Assembly: GCF_041242975.1 (NCBI RefSeq)
Contig: NZ_CP162488.1
Span: forward strand, 1,974,001 to 2,038,000
Source: Xanthomonas sp. DAR 35659
GTDB lineage: Bacteria > Pseudomonadota > Gammaproteobacteria > Xanthomonadales > Xanthomonadaceae
DNA length: 64,000 bases
Direction of reading: 5' to 3'
The notes beneath the pieces are model-generated. The model was not told the origin of the DNA. It did not search any database and saw only the letters and a list, made by a program, of their open reading frames with translations. Every line of letters starts with the position of its first letter. The first letter of the stretch is position 1. This document shows, one piece after another, positions 56,381 through 62,087 of this stretch. The translations under genes and the position numbers were made by a program.

Positions 56381-57511
56381 ATGTCCGATGTCCTTGAACT
56401 CGCCTGCGACCTGATCGCCCGCCCGTCGGTCACGCCCGACGATGCCGGGTGCCAGGCGCTGATCGCGCAGCGGCTGGAGCGCGCCGGTTTCGTCCTCGAA
56501 CGCTTGCGTTGCGGCCAGGTCGACAACCTGTGGGCCACCCATCGCGGCGGCGATGGGCCGGTGCTGGCGTTGCTCGGCCATACCGACGTGGTGCCGCCGG
56601 GGCCGCGCGACGCCTGGGCCAGCGATCCGTTCGCGCCGCAGATTCGCGACGGCGTGCTGTACGGGCGTGGTGCCGCCGACATGAAGGGCAGCGTGGCCGC
56701 GTTCGTGGTCGCCGCCGAACGCTTCGTGGCCGCGCAGCCGCGGCACCCGGGCACGCTGGCGCTGCTGCTGACCAGCGACGAGGAAGGCGATGCGATCAAT
56801 GGCGTGCGCCACGTGGCGCGCCTGTTCGCCGAGCGCGGCGAACGCATCGACTGGTGCATCACCGGCGAACCCTCGTCCACCGACCGGCTCGGCGACTTGC
56901 TCCGCGTCGGTCGCCGCGGCAGCCTCTCCGGCACGCTGGTGGTGCGTGGCGTGCAGGGCCATGTGGCCTATCCGCACAAGGCGCGCAATCCGATCCACCT
57001 GGCCGCGCCGGCGCTGGCCGACCTGGTCGCCCGGCACTGGGACGACGGCTACGAGAGCTTCCCGCCGACCAGCCTGCAGATCTCCAACGTGCATGCCGGC
57101 ACTGGCGCCAACAACGTGATCCCCGGCGAACTGCAGGTCGCGTTCAATCTGCGCTACACGCCGCATTGGGATGCCCCGCGACTGGAAGCGGAAATCGCCG
57201 CGCTGTTCGATCGCCATGGGCTGGACTACAGCCTGCGCTGGCATCGCAGCGGCGAGCCGTTCTACACCCCGGAGGGCACGCTGCGCCAGGTGGCGCGCGA
57301 GGTGCTGGGCGAGGTCGCGGGCGCGCCGCCGGAGGAAAGCACCGGTGGCGGCACCTCCGATGCGCGCTTCATCGCCCCGCTGGGCGCGCAGTGCATCGAG
57401 GTCGGCCCGGTCAACGCCAGCATCCACCAGGTCGACGAGCATGTGCGCGTGGCCGACCTGGAGGCGTTGCCGGATCTGTACCTGCGCCTGATCGAACGGT
57501 TGCTGCGGTAA
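56381..57511 (+). CDS. dapE: Succinyl-diaminopimelate desuccinylase
   Basis: The 376-residue dizinc enzyme removes succinate from N-succinyl-LL-diaminopimelate, three steps after DapD. Metal and catalytic motifs are [36 protein letters not shown] and the C-terminal [11 protein letters not shown] and NASIHQVDE. Its promoter-distal end is directly followed by the asnB leader region. Confidence 0.97.
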
Positions 57512-57514
57512 CAG

Positions 57515-57543
57515 TTGCGCCGGCCCGCGCGCCGGGTTACGGT
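57515..57543 (+). promoter_or_regulatory. Candidate promoter of the asnB leader
   Basis: TTGCGC (57515-57520), a 17-nt spacer and TACGGT (57538-57543) lie directly after the dapE stop. The -35 box and spacing equal those of the rpsB promoter in this window; the -10 box is weaker. Transcription would start about 57549-57551, at the ATG of the leader frame, implying a leaderless or near-leaderless message. Confidence 0.4.
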
Positions 57544-57549
57544 CGCCGC

Positions 57550-57645
57550 ATGACCTCGCTGTCCGCCCTCCGCCCGAACACCACCAACGGCCGCAATCAT
57601 GCGCTGGCGAATAATCGTGCGCGGCCGATGCGGGTCTGCGACTAG
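57550..57645 (+). CDS. Asparagine-rich leader peptide of asnB
   Basis: This is a 31-codon frame ending TAG, located between dapE and asnB. Five of its codons are Asn (positions 10, 13, 16, 21 and 22), including an adjacent pair ANNR just before the segment that can form the antiterminator. Asn is otherwise uncommon in this GC-rich genome. The gene downstream makes asparagine. The frame has no evident Shine-Dalgarno site, but the candidate promoter would start transcription at the ATG. It reads as the control peptide of a transcription attenuator, by analogy with the trp, his and leu leaders. Confidence 0.7.
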   Translation: MTSLSALRPNTTNGRNHALANNRARPMRVCD

Positions 57646-57708
57646 GCGCTACCAGAAACACCGCGCCCAGCCACCAGAAAACCCGCATCGGCCGATGCGG
57701 GTTTTTTT
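57622..57708 (+). promoter_or_regulatory. Asparagine attenuator of asnB (antiterminator/terminator switch)
   Basis: Segment 1, CGGCCGATGCGGGT (57622-57635), overlaps the last codons of the leader peptide and is identical to the 3' terminator arm (57689-57702). The 5' terminator arm (57681-57694) is therefore able to pair with either, giving mutually exclusive 14-bp antiterminator and 12-bp terminator stems. A ribosome paused at the Asn pair (57610-57615) leaves most of segment 1 free. A ribosome reaching the stop (57643-57645) covers it and allows termination. Confidence 0.7.
57678..57708 (+). terminator. Intrinsic terminator ahead of asnB
   Basis: AAAACCCGCATC (57678-57689) pairs with GATGCGGGTTTT (57694-57705) around a GGCC loop, and the T-run continues to 57708. 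It is the strongest terminator in the window and lies 87 nt before the asnB start, on the same strand. No gene other than the short leader frame lies between dapE and it. Confidence 0.9.
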
Positions 57709-57717
57709 GTGCCTGCG

Positions 57718-57758
57718 GTGTGGATACCTCCACACGAGCCCGGCCATCCATGGCCGGG
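57718..57758 (+). other. Two hairpins in the asnB 5' untranslated region
   Basis: GTGTGG-ATACCT-CCACAC (57718-57735) and CCCGGCCA-TCCA-TGGCCGGG (57739-57758) lie between the attenuator and the asnB ribosome binding site (CAGGAG, 57782-57787). They may protect the read-through message. No function is claimed. Confidence 0.45.
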
Positions 57759-57794
57759 GATTGAAACACCATCCCCACGATCAGGAGCTTTTCC

Positions 57795-59486
57795 ATGTGT
57801 TCGATCTTCGGCATCTTCGGCCTGCAACCGGGCGACGACCTGCAGGCATTGCGGCGGCAGGCGCTGGACTGCTCGCAGCGGCAACGCCACCGTGGCCCGG
57901 ACTGGAGCGGCGTGTATGTCGACGACGGCGCGATCCTGGTCCACGAGCGCTTGGCCATCGTCGACCCGGCCGGTGGCTCGCAGCCGCTGCTGTCGGACGA
58001 CGGGCAACTGGCGCTGGCGGTCAACGGCGAGATCTACAACCACCGCGAACTGAAGCAGCGACTCGCCCAGCCCTACGCCTTCCAGACCGGATCGGATTGC
58101 GAGGTGATCAATGCGCTGTATCGCGAAGCCACGCCGACTGAGTTGCTGAACCGCCTCAACGGTATCTTCGCGTTCGCGCTATGGGACAAGGCCGCCGGCC
58201 GCGTGCTGATCGCGCGCGATCCGATGGGCGTGTGCCCGCTGTACTGGGGCCACGACACGCAGGGCCGGCTGCGGGTGGCCTCGGAAATGAAGTCGCTGGC
58301 CGACACCTGCGCCGACGTCGCCCAGTTCCCGCCGGGCCACTATTACGACAGCGCCAGCGGCGAGCTGGTGCAGTACTACCGCAAGCCGTGGCGCGACTAC
58401 GCGGCGGTGCAGGGCGTGGAGGTGAGCAAGCAGGAACTGCGCGAGGCGTTCGAGCGCGCCGTGCATCGCCAACTGATGACCGACGTGCCGTATGGCGTGC
58501 TGCTGTCCGGCGGGCTGGATTCGTCGCTGGTCGCGGCGGTGGCCGCGCGCTTCGCGCGCAAGCGCATCGAGGAGAACGACGAGGCCGAGGCCTGGTGGCC
58601 GCGCCTGCACTCGTTCGCGATCGGCCTGAAGGGCTCGCCGGACCTGGCGGCCGCGGCGATCGCCGCCGAGGCGCTGGGCACCGTGCATCACGGCTTCGAA
58701 TACACCTTCGAGGAAGGCCTGGACGCGCTGCCGGAGGTGATCCGGCACATCGAGACCTACGACGTCACCACCATCCGCGCCTCCACGCCGATGTTCCTGC
58801 TGGCGCGGCGGATCAAGGCGATGGGGGTGAAGATGGTGCTCTCCGGCGAGGGCAGCGACGAGATCTTCGGCGGCTACCTGTATTTCCACAAGGCGCCGAA
58901 CGCGCGCGAGTTCCACGAGGAACTGATCCGCAAGCTCGACGCGCTTTACAACTACGACTGCCTGCGCGCCAACAAGTCGATGATGGCCTGGGGCGTGGAG
59001 CCGCGTGTGCCGTTCCTGGACGTGGAATTCCTGGACGTGGCCATGCGCATGGACGCCCAGTACAAGATGATCGACAAGGCCAGCGGCGGCGCGGCGCGCA
59101 TGGAGAAAGGCGTGCTGCGCGACGCCTTCGAAGGCTATCTGCCCGAGTCGATCCTGTGGCGGCAGAAGGAGCAGTTCAGCGACGGCGTCGGCTATGGCTG
59201 GATCGATGGGCTGAAGGCGCACGCCGAGGCGCAGGTCAGCGACCGCGAACTGGCCGCGGCCAACAAGCGTTTCCCGGTGAACCCGCCGCAGACCAAGGAG
59301 GCGTACTACTACCGCAGCCTGTTCGAGCGCGCGTTCCCGAGCCCGGCCGCGGCCGAGACCGTGCCCGGCGGCAAGTCGATCGCGTGCTCGTCGCCAGCGG
59401 CGATCGCCTGGGACGCGAGCTTCGCGGCCATGGCCGATCCTTCCGGCCGCGCGGTGGCCGGGGTGCACGCGCAGGCATTGGCATGA
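57795..59486 (+). CDS. asnB: Asparagine synthetase B (glutamine-hydrolysing)
   Basis: The 563-residue enzyme makes asparagine from aspartate, ATP and glutamine. The glutaminase domain starts with nucleophile Cys2 (MCSIFGIFG) and contains RHRGPDWSGVY, LAVNGEIYNHRELK and GSDCEVINALY. The synthetase domain has the pyrophosphate loop LLSGGLDSSLVAA near residue 237 and LSGEGSDEIFGGYLYFHKAP near 350. Length matches E. coli AsnB. It lies 87 nt behind an intrinsic terminator, so its expression depends on read-through. A 14-bp hairpin follows its stop. Confidence 0.97.
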   Translation: MCSIFGIFGLQPGDDLQALRRQALDCSQRQRHRGPDWSGVYVDDGAILVHERLAIVDPAGGSQPLLSDDGQLALAVNGEIYNHRELKQRLAQPYAFQTGSDCEVINALYREATPTELLNRLNGIFAFALWDKAAGRVLIARDPMGVCPLYWGHDTQGRLRVASEMKSLADTCADVAQFPPGHYYDSASGELVQYYRKPWRDYAAVQGVEVSKQELREAFERAVHRQLMTDVPYGVLLSGGLDSSLVAAVAARFARKRIEENDEAEAWWPRLHSFAIGLKGSPDLAAAAIAAEALGTVHHGFEYTFEEGLDALPEVIRHIETYDVTTIRASTPMFLLARRIKAMGVKMVLSGEGSDEIFGGYLYFHKAPNAREFHEELIRKLDALYNYDCLRANKSMMAWGVEPRVPFLDVEFLDVAMRMDAQYKMIDKASGGAARMEKGVLRDAFEGYLPESILWRQKEQFSDGVGYGWIDGLKAHAEAQVSDRELAAANKRFPVNPPQTKEAYYYRSLFERAFPSPAAAETVPGGKSIACSSPAAIAWDASFAAMADPSGRAVAGVHAQALA

Positions 59487-59707: not shown

Positions 59708-60778
59708 CTACGGCAGATCCGCCGCCGTGGTGCCGTGGGCGCCGTGCAGGCCCGCCGGCGACTGGCCGCCGTCCACGCGGATGCGGCTCTTGCCGTCGCG
59801 CTTGGCCGCGTACAGCGCGCGGTCGGCGCGTTCGAGCAGGTCCGCGACCTCGCCACCCGGCCGCATGCGCGCGACCCCGGCGCTGAAGGTGAAGGTCACG
59901 CCCTTGGCGCGGATCCGCTGCACGCGGTCCAGCAGTCGTTGCAGCAGCGCCCCGGTCTGCGCGTCGCTCATGCCCTCGAACAGGATGCCGAATTCTTCGC
60001 CGCCGAGCCGGCCGACCCGGCAGCCGTGCTCCGGTCGCGCCAGTTCCGCGGCCAGCGCCAGCAGCACGGCGTCGCCGACATCGTGGCCGTGGGTGTCGTT
60101 GACCTGTTTGAAATCGTCGATGTCCAGCATCGCGAAATGCACGGCGCCGGCGTGGCCGCGTTCGGCGGCCAGCGCGTGCAGTTGCGCCATCAGCGCGCGG
60201 CGGTTGGCCAGCCCGGTGAGCGCATCGGTCTCGGACATGCGCCGGTAGTCCTCCTTCAGCCGGTAGCTGCTCAGCATGCTGCGCGCGAAGGCCAGGTTCA
60301 TCGCCACGCCGATCAGTGATACCGCTACCACCAGCAGGCCCAGCAGCGCCGGATCGCCGTGGGCCGCCAGCCGCAACGGTTGCCCGGTCAGCATGATCGT
60401 CCAGGTGTAGGCCAGCGCCAGCAGGTAGTCGCGCGTGAACGGGAACAGCAGGTTGATGCCCAGGCACAGGGTGACCGCGACCGGCAGCCGCCAGAAGGCG
60501 CTGTGCGTGCCCATCTGCTGCAGTTCGATCTGGTAGGCCAGCGCCAGCGCCAGCACGTACAGCGCGCTGCTCAGCCGCCATTGCCAGAAGCCGCGCGCCA
60601 GCAGGGTACTGGCCGCGGCGCCGCACATGACGGCCAACAGCGTCGCGTTGACCAGGTCCCAGGGTTGCGGCAGATAGGGGTTGAACAGCAGCGTCGCGAC
60701 CCAGATCGACAGGGTCAGGGCGTGGATGGCGGTGGTCGAACGGCCCAGCAGGTGGCGAATGTGCTCCCTGTACGTCAT
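59708..60778 (-). CDS. Membrane GGDEF diguanylate cyclase, copy A
   Basis: The 356-residue protein has about six transmembrane helices in residues 20-190 and a GGDEF domain at about 195-330 with active site GRLGGEEFGILFEG. The RxxD inhibitory site expected five residues before the GGEEF is absent (EHGC occupies it), so product inhibition may be lost. The membrane part matches no named sensor domain. The ATG at MTYREHI has AGGA close upstream; a GTG 20 codons earlier is an alternative and would match its paralogue's longer N-terminus. Confidence 0.88.
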   Translation of the reverse strand: MTYREHIRHLLGRSTTAIHALTLSIWVATLLFNPYLPQPWDLVNATLLAVMCGAAASTLLARGFWQWRLSSALYVLALALAYQIELQQMGTHSAFWRLPVAVTLCLGINLLFPFTRDYLLALAYTWTIMLTGQPLRLAAHGDPALLGLLVVAVSLIGVAMNLAFARSMLSSYRLKEDYRRMSETDALTGLANRRALMAQLHALAAERGHAGAVHFAMLDIDDFKQVNDTHGHDVGDAVLLALAAELARPEHGCRVGRLGGEEFGILFEGMSDAQTGALLQRLLDRVQRIRAKGVTFTFSAGVARMRPGGEVADLLERADRALYAAKRDGKSRIRVDGGQSPAGLHGAHGTTAADLP

Positions 60779-60992
60779 GTCCTGCCCAACGGCGCGTACC
60801 GGCCGGTTCGTGATGTGCGGGCGTGGCTGTGCCTGCACGGAGGCGCGCCCTGGATCGATGCGAGGTTATCGGCACGCAGGGGCGTGGACTTGAGCGGTGG
60901 TTGCCACGCAAGACGTTGCTGGTGGCGCGCGGCGATGACGTGGCGCGTCGTGCCGCCGCGGCGATGGCAACGCGGCCCGCGCCGCTGCCGGT

Positions 60993-62087
60993 TCAGGCGT
61001 CGTGCGTACCGTCCCGGTGGTCGAGATGGATCCGGCCCTTGCCGTCGCGCTTGGCCGCGTACAGCGCCTGGTCGGCACGCTTGAGCAGGTCGGTGGTCTC
61101 GCCGCTGGCGCCCAGCCGCGCGGCGCCGGCGCTGAACGCGAACGCCACGCCCTCCACGCGCAGGCCGCGGACCCGCTCCAGCAGGCCCTGCAACGCCGCG
61201 GCGACCTGCGCGTCGCGCATGTCCTCGAACACCACGCCGAATTCCTCGCCGCCCAGCCGGCCGATCCTGCAGCGCGGGCCCAGTTCGCCCAGTGCGGTGG
61301 CCAGCGCCAGCAGCACCGCATCGCCGACATGGTGGCCATGGGTGTCGTTGACCTGCTTGAAATCGTCGACGTCGAGCATCGCGAAGTGCACCGTGCCGTG
61401 CCTGCGCGCGGCGGCCGCGCGCAGCTGCGTCATCAGCGCGCGGCGGTTGGCGATGCCGGTCAACGGATCGGTCTCGGCCAGGCGCCGGTAGTCCTCCTGC
61501 AGCGTGTAGGCGGTGCGCATGGCGCCGACGAACATGCGGTTGATGGCGATGCCGAGCAAGGCCACCACCGTCAGCAGGATCGCCAGCAGCGGCAGGTCCA
61601 CCGCGGCCGGAACCAGTTGTGCTTGTCCTGCGAACATGAGGGTCCAGATGCAGGCCATCGCCACCAGGTAGTCGCGCGAGAACGAGAACAGCAGGCTGGC
61701 GCCCAGGCAGATGATGGCGGTCACCGGCAGCAGCCAGAACAGGCCGTGCTCGCCCATGGCGTGGAGTTCGACCCGGAACGCGGTGGTCAGCGCGATCACG
61801 AACAGGAAGCCGCTCTGCCGCCATTGCCAGAAGCGCTTGGCCAGGCTCATGTTGGCCGAGGCGATCAGCAGGGCGACGAAGACCAGCGCGTAGCGGGCGT
61901 CGAGCGGCTGCTGCAGATGCGGATTGCACAGGACCGACGCCGGCCACGCCACCAGGGTCAGCAACTGGATGGTGGCGATGGAACCGCCGAGCATGCGCCG
62001 GATGTAGTTCCGGTAGGTCGTCTCGTCGGCCGCAGACGCGGCCGCGTCGCGGCGGCGGTCTGCGAGGGAAACGCCATCTGGCTCCAT
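60993..62087 (-). CDS. Membrane GGDEF diguanylate cyclase, copy B
   Basis: The 364-residue product is a paralogue of the adjacent cyclase: the same six-helix membrane region (TYRNYIRRMLGGSIATIQLL onward) and the GGDEF domain with GRLGGEEFGVVFED. It also lacks the RxxD site (GPRC in its place). The two genes point the same way with about 210 nt between them, which marks a tandem duplication. The copies have diverged most in the membrane loops, so the sensed signals may differ. Confidence 0.88.
   Translation of the reverse strand: MEPDGVSLADRRRDAAASAADETTYRNYIRRMLGGSIATIQLLTLVAWPASVLCNPHLQQPLDARYALVFVALLIASANMSLAKRFWQWRQSGFLFVIALTTAFRVELHAMGEHGLFWLLPVTAIICLGASLLFSFSRDYLVAMACIWTLMFAGQAQLVPAAVDLPLLAILLTVVALLGIAINRMFVGAMRTAYTLQEDYRRLAETDPLTGIANRRALMTQLRAAAARRHGTVHFAMLDVDDFKQVNDTHGHHVGDAVLLALATALGELGPRCRIGRLGGEEFGVVFEDMRDAQVAAALQGLLERVRGLRVEGVAFAFSAGAARLGASGETTDLLKRADQALYAAKRDGKGRIHLDHRDGTHDA

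Follow-up and report, generated by a model that had tools for sequence, protein, structure and literature searches.

The window, a stretch of 64,000 nucleotides covering positions 1,974,001-2,038,000 of a 5.4-Mb single-contig genome, contains asnB (57795..59486), which encodes asparagine synthase B (NF006949, 877.8 bits against a cut-off of 499; PF00733) and has a Shine-Dalgarno motif, AGGAG, at 57783..57787. The features of its upstream region described here all lie with it on the + strand. Directly upstream of the leader, dapE ends at 57511 (stop codon 57509-57511) and is followed by a predicted promoter in which a 17-nt spacer separates a -35 element (TTGCGC, 57515..57520) from a -10 element (TACGGT, 57538..57543) that ends 6 nt 5' of an ATG; the predicted +1, at 57550, coincides with the A of this ATG. 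The frame that it opens (57550..57645, stop codon from 57643) has 31 codons, translates as MTSLSALRPNTTNGRNHALANNRARPMRVCD followed by the stop, and contains five Asn codons (10, 13, 16, 21, and 22), two of which form an adjacent pair. An intrinsic terminator with a seven-T tail occupies 57678..57708, reading AAAACCCGCATC-GGCC-GATGCGGGTTTT over 57678-57705 with the seven T at 57702-57708. The 14-mer CGGCCGATGCGGGT is present twice, at 57622-57635 within the end of the frame, where it forms the 5' segment of an antiterminator, and at 57689-57702 on the 3' side of the terminator. Hence a shared segment, ACCCGCATCGGCC (57681..57693), can pair either with 57623-57635 or, through its first part, with the terminator 3' arm, and folding places an inner antiterminator helix, GGCGC/GCGCC, within 57645..57667 (57645-57649 with 57663-57667). 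A sequence-only reading of this DNA had described an Asn-rich frame of this length on the asnB strand between dapE and an intrinsic terminator, together with the duplicated 14-nt segment at the frame's end, and its description is correct in every detail that we checked. Two further elements of the locus lie beside the leader. The near-palindromic 18-mer CCGGCCATCCATGGCCGG between the terminator and asnB (57740-57757) is a dispersed intergenic repeat, with two further copies in the genome (L003, L004) and one before the asnB of a Lysobacter (L021). Downstream of asnB, two adjoining genes for GGDEF (diguanylate cyclase) proteins on the - strand (59708-60838 and 60993-62087) are possibly the product of a tandem duplication.

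The pairing potential of the duplicated segment is far outside what base composition would give. The duplex of 57622-57635 with the terminator 5' arm and loop has an energy of -29.0 kcal/mol, whereas 5,000 dinucleotide shuffles gave a mean of -13.8 (sd 2.2, lowest -23.9), none of them as good. Before the terminator 3' arm is made, the RNA of the window has a folding energy of -48.3 kcal/mol (z -4.3), which none of 200 shuffles equalled, and the terminator itself (57656-57705) folds at -19.8 kcal/mol. A standard promoter and terminator scan listed nothing at the leader promoter or terminator, the miss at 57678-57708 apparently arising because the stem takes in part of the T run; the hairpin was found both by folding and by a separate terminator scan. 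The gene downstream of these elements is the genome's only clear asparagine synthetase gene. One AsnB lies over the cut-off, five weaker matches to the asparagine synthase model elsewhere in the genome stay below it, and AsnA was not found in the genome. AsnRS was found, whereas a search of 13 genomes from the genus (that of the window and 12 others) gave no GatB, so that Asn-tRNA should be made from free asparagine. Among the matches listed, the AsnB of the window is 91% identical to one from Stenotrophomonas and 88-89% identical to two from Xanthomonas.

The same device precedes asnB in 137 of the 215 asnB loci that were read, some genomes being read twice: the window, 41 of 80 named loci (the best 80 AsnB loci among the matches listed), and 95 of 134 loci from genomes of the same order, the last being the upstream regions read from 250 genomes, 169 of which have AsnB at E≤1e-150. 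Within the same-order set the device is nearly universal in the family of the window (f1, 47/49) and in two others (f2, 3/3; f12, 44/46), and rare or absent in more distant families (f7, 1/17; f9, 0/18), where the f7 count stands apart from a genome with only 95 nt upstream (G208). Families f4, f5, and f10 had AsnB matches outside the 134-locus count, while f3, f6, f8, and f11 had none among the matches listed, a listing to which the 61 genomes without a match do not belong. Named carriers include Xanthomonas, Stenotrophomonas, Pseudoxanthomonas, Luteimonas, Thermomonas, Lysobacter, Arenimonas, Rhodanobacter, Dyella, and Fulvimonas. The four exceptions in f1 and f12 (L125, L126, L174, and L175; genomes G091, G237, G230, and G067) encode an AsnB only 63-65% identical to that of the window, and the terminator scan gave no terminator or only weak hairpins before asnB in each. 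The remaining named loci without the device encode an AsnB 59-65% identical to that of the window. Three further loci without a leader, labelled Holophagales, Rhodococcus, and Deltaproteobacteria (L018, L024, and L044), have an AsnB 75-83% identical to that of the window and may reflect either transfer or mis-binning. Outside the carrier families a terminator-like hairpin without an Asn frame can precede asnB, as in G114 (f9) and L058 (Ferrimonas), and these look like other terminators. For 34 loci, which enter the presence counts only, the device was judged by visual inspection and from the frame with the most Asn, not by the terminator scan. One leader (G221) was found by reading its frame backward from the stop; far-upstream frames in G049 and G178, with four Asn in 20 residues, were taken as chance.

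The sequence-only reading had set the device between dapE and asnB and had asked for the asnB upstream intervals of relatives to be compared. That comparison shows the Asn codons, the frame, the antiterminator segment, and the terminator to be kept while other codons drift, and in the three families that carry the device no locus was found that keeps the terminator and has lost the Asn frame. The dapE setting is true of the window, but dapE is dispensable: a DapE match was found in 13 of 39 named leader loci, and the device is kept in the other 26, three of which hold little upstream DNA. This bears on the simplest alternative, that the hairpin is an ordinary dapE terminator with a chance frame beside it. 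The position of dapE directly upstream in the window and the 13 loci with a DapE match are what such a terminator would give, but the 26 loci without one keep the device, and the Asn enrichment, the pattern of variation by codon position, and the leader's own promoter, all described below, are so far from chance that we regard this explanation as extremely improbable.

The leader statistics are based on 127 leaders from the named and same-order sets, which overlap; merging the identical leaders in five groups gave 121 distinct leaders. They omit L182 (a chance frame with two Asn) and two loci that do carry the device, L037 (start unclear) and L040 (GTG start). A promoter score of at least 10 was obtained at 120 of the 121 leaders versus 25 of 629 other ATGs of those sequences, a contrast that, like that in spacing, is inflated somewhat because leader starts were picked by promoter score among in-frame ATGs. 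The distance from the -10 element to the ATG is 6 nt in 74 leaders, 7 in 43, 8 in three, and 5 in one, with spacers of 17-18 nt, and a Shine-Dalgarno-like motif stands before the leader in 14 of the 121 loci versus 114 before asnB. With +1 predicted at the ATG and few Shine-Dalgarno motifs in front of it, translation of the leader probably takes place on a leaderless transcript. This goes beyond the sequence-only reading, in that the frame probably opens where transcription starts. Leaderlessness is not universal, as the single f7 carrier (G082, locus L200), with a 22-residue frame of four Asn and a terminator, has its ATG about 25 nt after the -10 element; this leader represents either an older form or an independent origin.

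Asparagine is the commonest residue of the leader peptides (19.8% in the 121 distinct leaders, 3-10 per leader), and adjacent pairs (NN) occur in 118 and triplets (NNN) in 66 of them. An upstream ATG frame with four or more Asn exists in 112 of the 121, versus none of the 121 when the reverse strand is read and 61 of 2,420 shuffles; the leaders were themselves chosen as an Asn frame near a terminator, and the shuffles and the presence counts by family are the fairer tests. Frames with at least four Asn occur as well at four loci that lack the device (L052, L054, L066, and L072), probably by chance in AT-rich DNA. One of them, L072 from Photobacterium iliopiscarium, has a 26-residue frame with seven Asn before asnB and no terminator in the scan, possibly by chance in an AT-rich genome. 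None of four leader peptides matched an NCBIfam model up to E = 1; one has 78 relatives, of which those bearing a name are called hypothetical protein.

For codon columns, 96 of the 121 leaders were aligned in two groups, A and B. Seven Asn columns are conserved in at least 90% of leaders; their heterozygosity is 0-0.14 at codon positions 1-2 and 0.21-0.50 at position 3, where the variation is mainly the exchange of AAC and AAT; in one column across 42 leaders there are 20 AAT and 20 AAC. Drift at the best conserved Asn codons is thus nearly synonymous. When all Asn-majority columns are taken, group B shows a clear contrast at positions 1-2 (0.23/0.29 vs 0.49/0.45 in other columns), while in group A the two are scarcely different (0.28/0.31 vs 0.33/0.36). 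In f12-type leaders (group B), the pairing segment includes a codon with a free first base and invariant second and third bases, so that the residue changes, which is what RNA pairing would demand. Together with the third-base variation of the core columns, this indicates that what is conserved is the amino acid at the Asn codons and the RNA in the downstream segment. Of the 795 leader Asn codons, 376 (47%) are AAT, versus 53 of 336 (16%) in asnB of the window and the named leader loci (Fisher p = 4e-25, codons of related genes not being independent), an excess for which slower decoding or the avoidance of RNA structure are possible reasons.

The codon pattern also bears on two other explanations of the leader. 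A ligand- or protein-binding RNA, such as a riboswitch or T-box, that merely happens to contain a frame would account for the strong alternative structures, but an RNA blind to the frame would not vary mainly at the third base of its best conserved Asn codons. No Rfam family scored above its gathering threshold (Thr_leader reached 25.2 against 55 and Leu_leader 22.5 against 50), and a T-box was absent among the 11 Rfam matches up to E = 1; the sub-threshold matches (rsmX, miRNA families, SgrS, and Thr_leader, the last also on the other strand) were taken as chance. We therefore give such an RNA next to no credence. The second explanation is that the short RNA left by termination, or the leader peptide, has an additional role in trans, and that the conservation partly reflects this role. 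Plentiful asparagine would indeed yield a short leaderless transcript, and there is a precedent, in the part of the report available, in rnTrpL/peTrpL of Sinorhizobium meliloti (PMC7298713). However, the conserved C-terminal codons coincide with the pairing segment, the residue in group B changes where RNA pairing allows it, and the N-terminal half of the leader peptide is poorly conserved outside the Asn runs, so that we hold a contribution in trans to be very unlikely.

The two RNA structures differ in how they are supported by the alignments. The terminator covaries in two alignments; in one of them, with 39 distinct sequences, 100% of cells are paired and the covariation score lies above that of 500 of 500 shuffles. 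The antiterminator was followed in alignments A1 (43 of the 44 sequences of its group) and A2 (43 of 54; the other eleven, in which the leader is divergent or the segment lies elsewhere, were dropped, which favours A2), 23 of the 121 leaders being in neither source group. Its cells are paired in 83.8% (A1) and 95.5% (A2), and those of the inner helix in 66.0% (A1, with a four-pair helix counted) and 92.6% (the equivalent helix of A2). Its covariation score was reached by 92 of 500 shuffles in A1 and 14 of 500 in A2, and its pairs with two-sided changes by 100 and 71 of 500, respectively. The antiterminator is therefore well conserved and its covariation within clades is weak; its sequence differs between clades together with that of the terminator, in few independent events. 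The stop codon lies 19-37 nt from the terminator stem in the 121 leaders. Exact copies of the terminator arm reach p≤0.05 in only 57 of 121 leaders, and because exact-copy length is a poor statistic where G-U pairs occur it was replaced by duplex energy, for which the mean z is -3.4 and p≤0.05 in 87 of 121. Folding at the antiterminator stage gives z<-2 in 65 of 121.

We propose, with high confidence, that the asnB leader is a ribosome-mediated transcription attenuator with charged asparagine tRNA as its signal. Each part that the sequence-only reading had named for such a device (a frame, a terminator, and an antiterminator sharing its 5' arm) is present, the amino acid matches the downstream enzyme, and its interpretation is strongly supported by the comparison of relatives. 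Specifically, RNA polymerase would start on the A of the leader ATG or on an adjacent base, and the ribosome would begin on this probably leaderless start. When Asn-tRNA is scarce, the ribosome would wait at the Asn codons, leaving 57622-57635 free to pair with 57681-57693 ahead of the synthesis of the terminator 3' arm, such that no terminator forms and asnB is transcribed. When Asn-tRNA is plentiful, the ribosome would reach the stop at 57643 and cover 57622-57635, the terminator would form, and the transcript would end in vivo about 86 nt before asnB. AsnB makes asparagine and AsnRS charges it, which would close the loop and make asnB respond to asparagine supply.

In a model that drops all RNA behind the leading edge of the ribosome, the position of the ribosome selects the fold as the sequence-only reading had predicted, and the two folds are mutually exclusive. 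At the stage when the 3' arm has yet to be made, the terminator 5' arm has a mean probability of upstream pairing of 0.68 for a ribosome at the first Asn codon, 0.54 for one at the last, and 0.20 for one at the stop. The modelled difference between the first Asn codon and the stop exceeds 0.3 in 109 of 121 leaders versus 93 of 484 shuffles, and in 108-115 leaders for footprints of 10-16 nt. In the window, moving the modelled ribosome from the first Asn codon to the last and then to the stop raises the terminator probability from 0.00 to 0.05 and then to 0.96. A ribosome at the last Asn codon leaves little antiterminator in 19 of the 121 modelled leaders. At equilibrium most leaders favour the terminator even when the ribosome waits at the first Asn codon (median 0.93), so that control in those leaders must be kinetic, by kinetic trapping. 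When the ribosome is left out, the model still favours the antiterminator stage (mean 0.61, above 0.5 in 101 of 121 leaders, 0.75 in the window), and hence no protector hairpin like that of the E. coli trp leader is evident. This default also suits a leader that responds to translation in general, through initiation or a global slowdown rather than through asparagine alone, in which an untranslated leaderless start would switch asnB on. However, it is Asn in particular that is kept at the core codons, and the gene is one that makes asparagine; a general response is, in our judgement, unlikely.

Leader-peptide attenuators are known for the trp, his, leu, ilv, thr, and phe operons of Proteobacteria. 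If the Asn-specific, leaderless reading of the asnB leader is true, a transcript that begins with AUG would make ribosome loading part of the sensor. We incline slightly toward the fuller claim that this is an Asn-specific attenuator not described before, occurring in three families of one order on a leaderless frame, in which sensing includes ribosome loading and, contrary to the trp type, a transcript that no ribosome has loaded reads through by default. If so, asparagine would be a further amino acid sensed through ribosomes stalled on leader codons, and the device would explain how Xanthomonas, Stenotrophomonas, Lysobacter, Rhodanobacter, and their relatives may control asparagine supply. 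The more than 100 natural variants are a good system for measuring what codon number, the choice of AAC or AAT, and segment strength contribute to attenuation, and they also suit the testing of attenuation on a leaderless start. Among the literature matches listed, with subscription papers on attenuators mostly outside this scope, no asnB or Asn leader attenuator was found. None appears in the available parts of PMC2965389, PMC8632094, PMC3771888, PMC4833913, PMC4633059, PMC1183508, PMC7298713, and PMC1262725, and a text search of PMC3744752 gave no match.

Several proposed or known leaders resemble the asnB leader in part. As far as the accessible portions of these reports go, the transcript of S. 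meliloti trpL (rnTrpL/peTrpL) begins with the leader ATG like that of the asnB leader, but it concerns Trp, is alphaproteobacterial, and has reported functions in trans (PMC7298713). The mycobacterial cysteine-rich upstream frames (PMC4633059, PMC1262725) share a proposed attenuation by runs of codons for an amino acid outside the classical list, but they differ in the amino acid and in being actinobacterial, and conserved terminator hairpins were not seen in the part of PMC1262725 available. The uORFC-8-2 motif before cysS in Rhodobacterales likewise has leader codons for one amino acid and was proposed from comparison, but for cysteine, a tRNA synthetase gene, and alphaproteobacteria (PMC8632094, available text). 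The attenuator-like leaders of ilvB and leuA in Streptomyces coelicolor, where, according to the text available, mutation gave non-classical behaviour (PMC1262725), were counted against an asnB attenuator. With the classical attenuators, the asnB leader shares a short frame in which codons for the product amino acid abound, an intrinsic terminator, an antiterminator sharing its 5' arm, and conservation across relatives; it differs from them in its Asn specificity, in the gene asnB, in an antiterminator segment inside the end of the frame, in having no evident protector hairpin, and in being probably leaderless. In the E. coli trp type, the protector hairpin (1:2) leaves the antiterminator sequestered when there is no translation, whereas the model gives the opposite for the asnB leader in 101 of the 121 cases, and we therefore do not file it under the protector-hairpin subtype. 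By the features tested, the asnB leader belongs to the ribosome-mediated attenuators.
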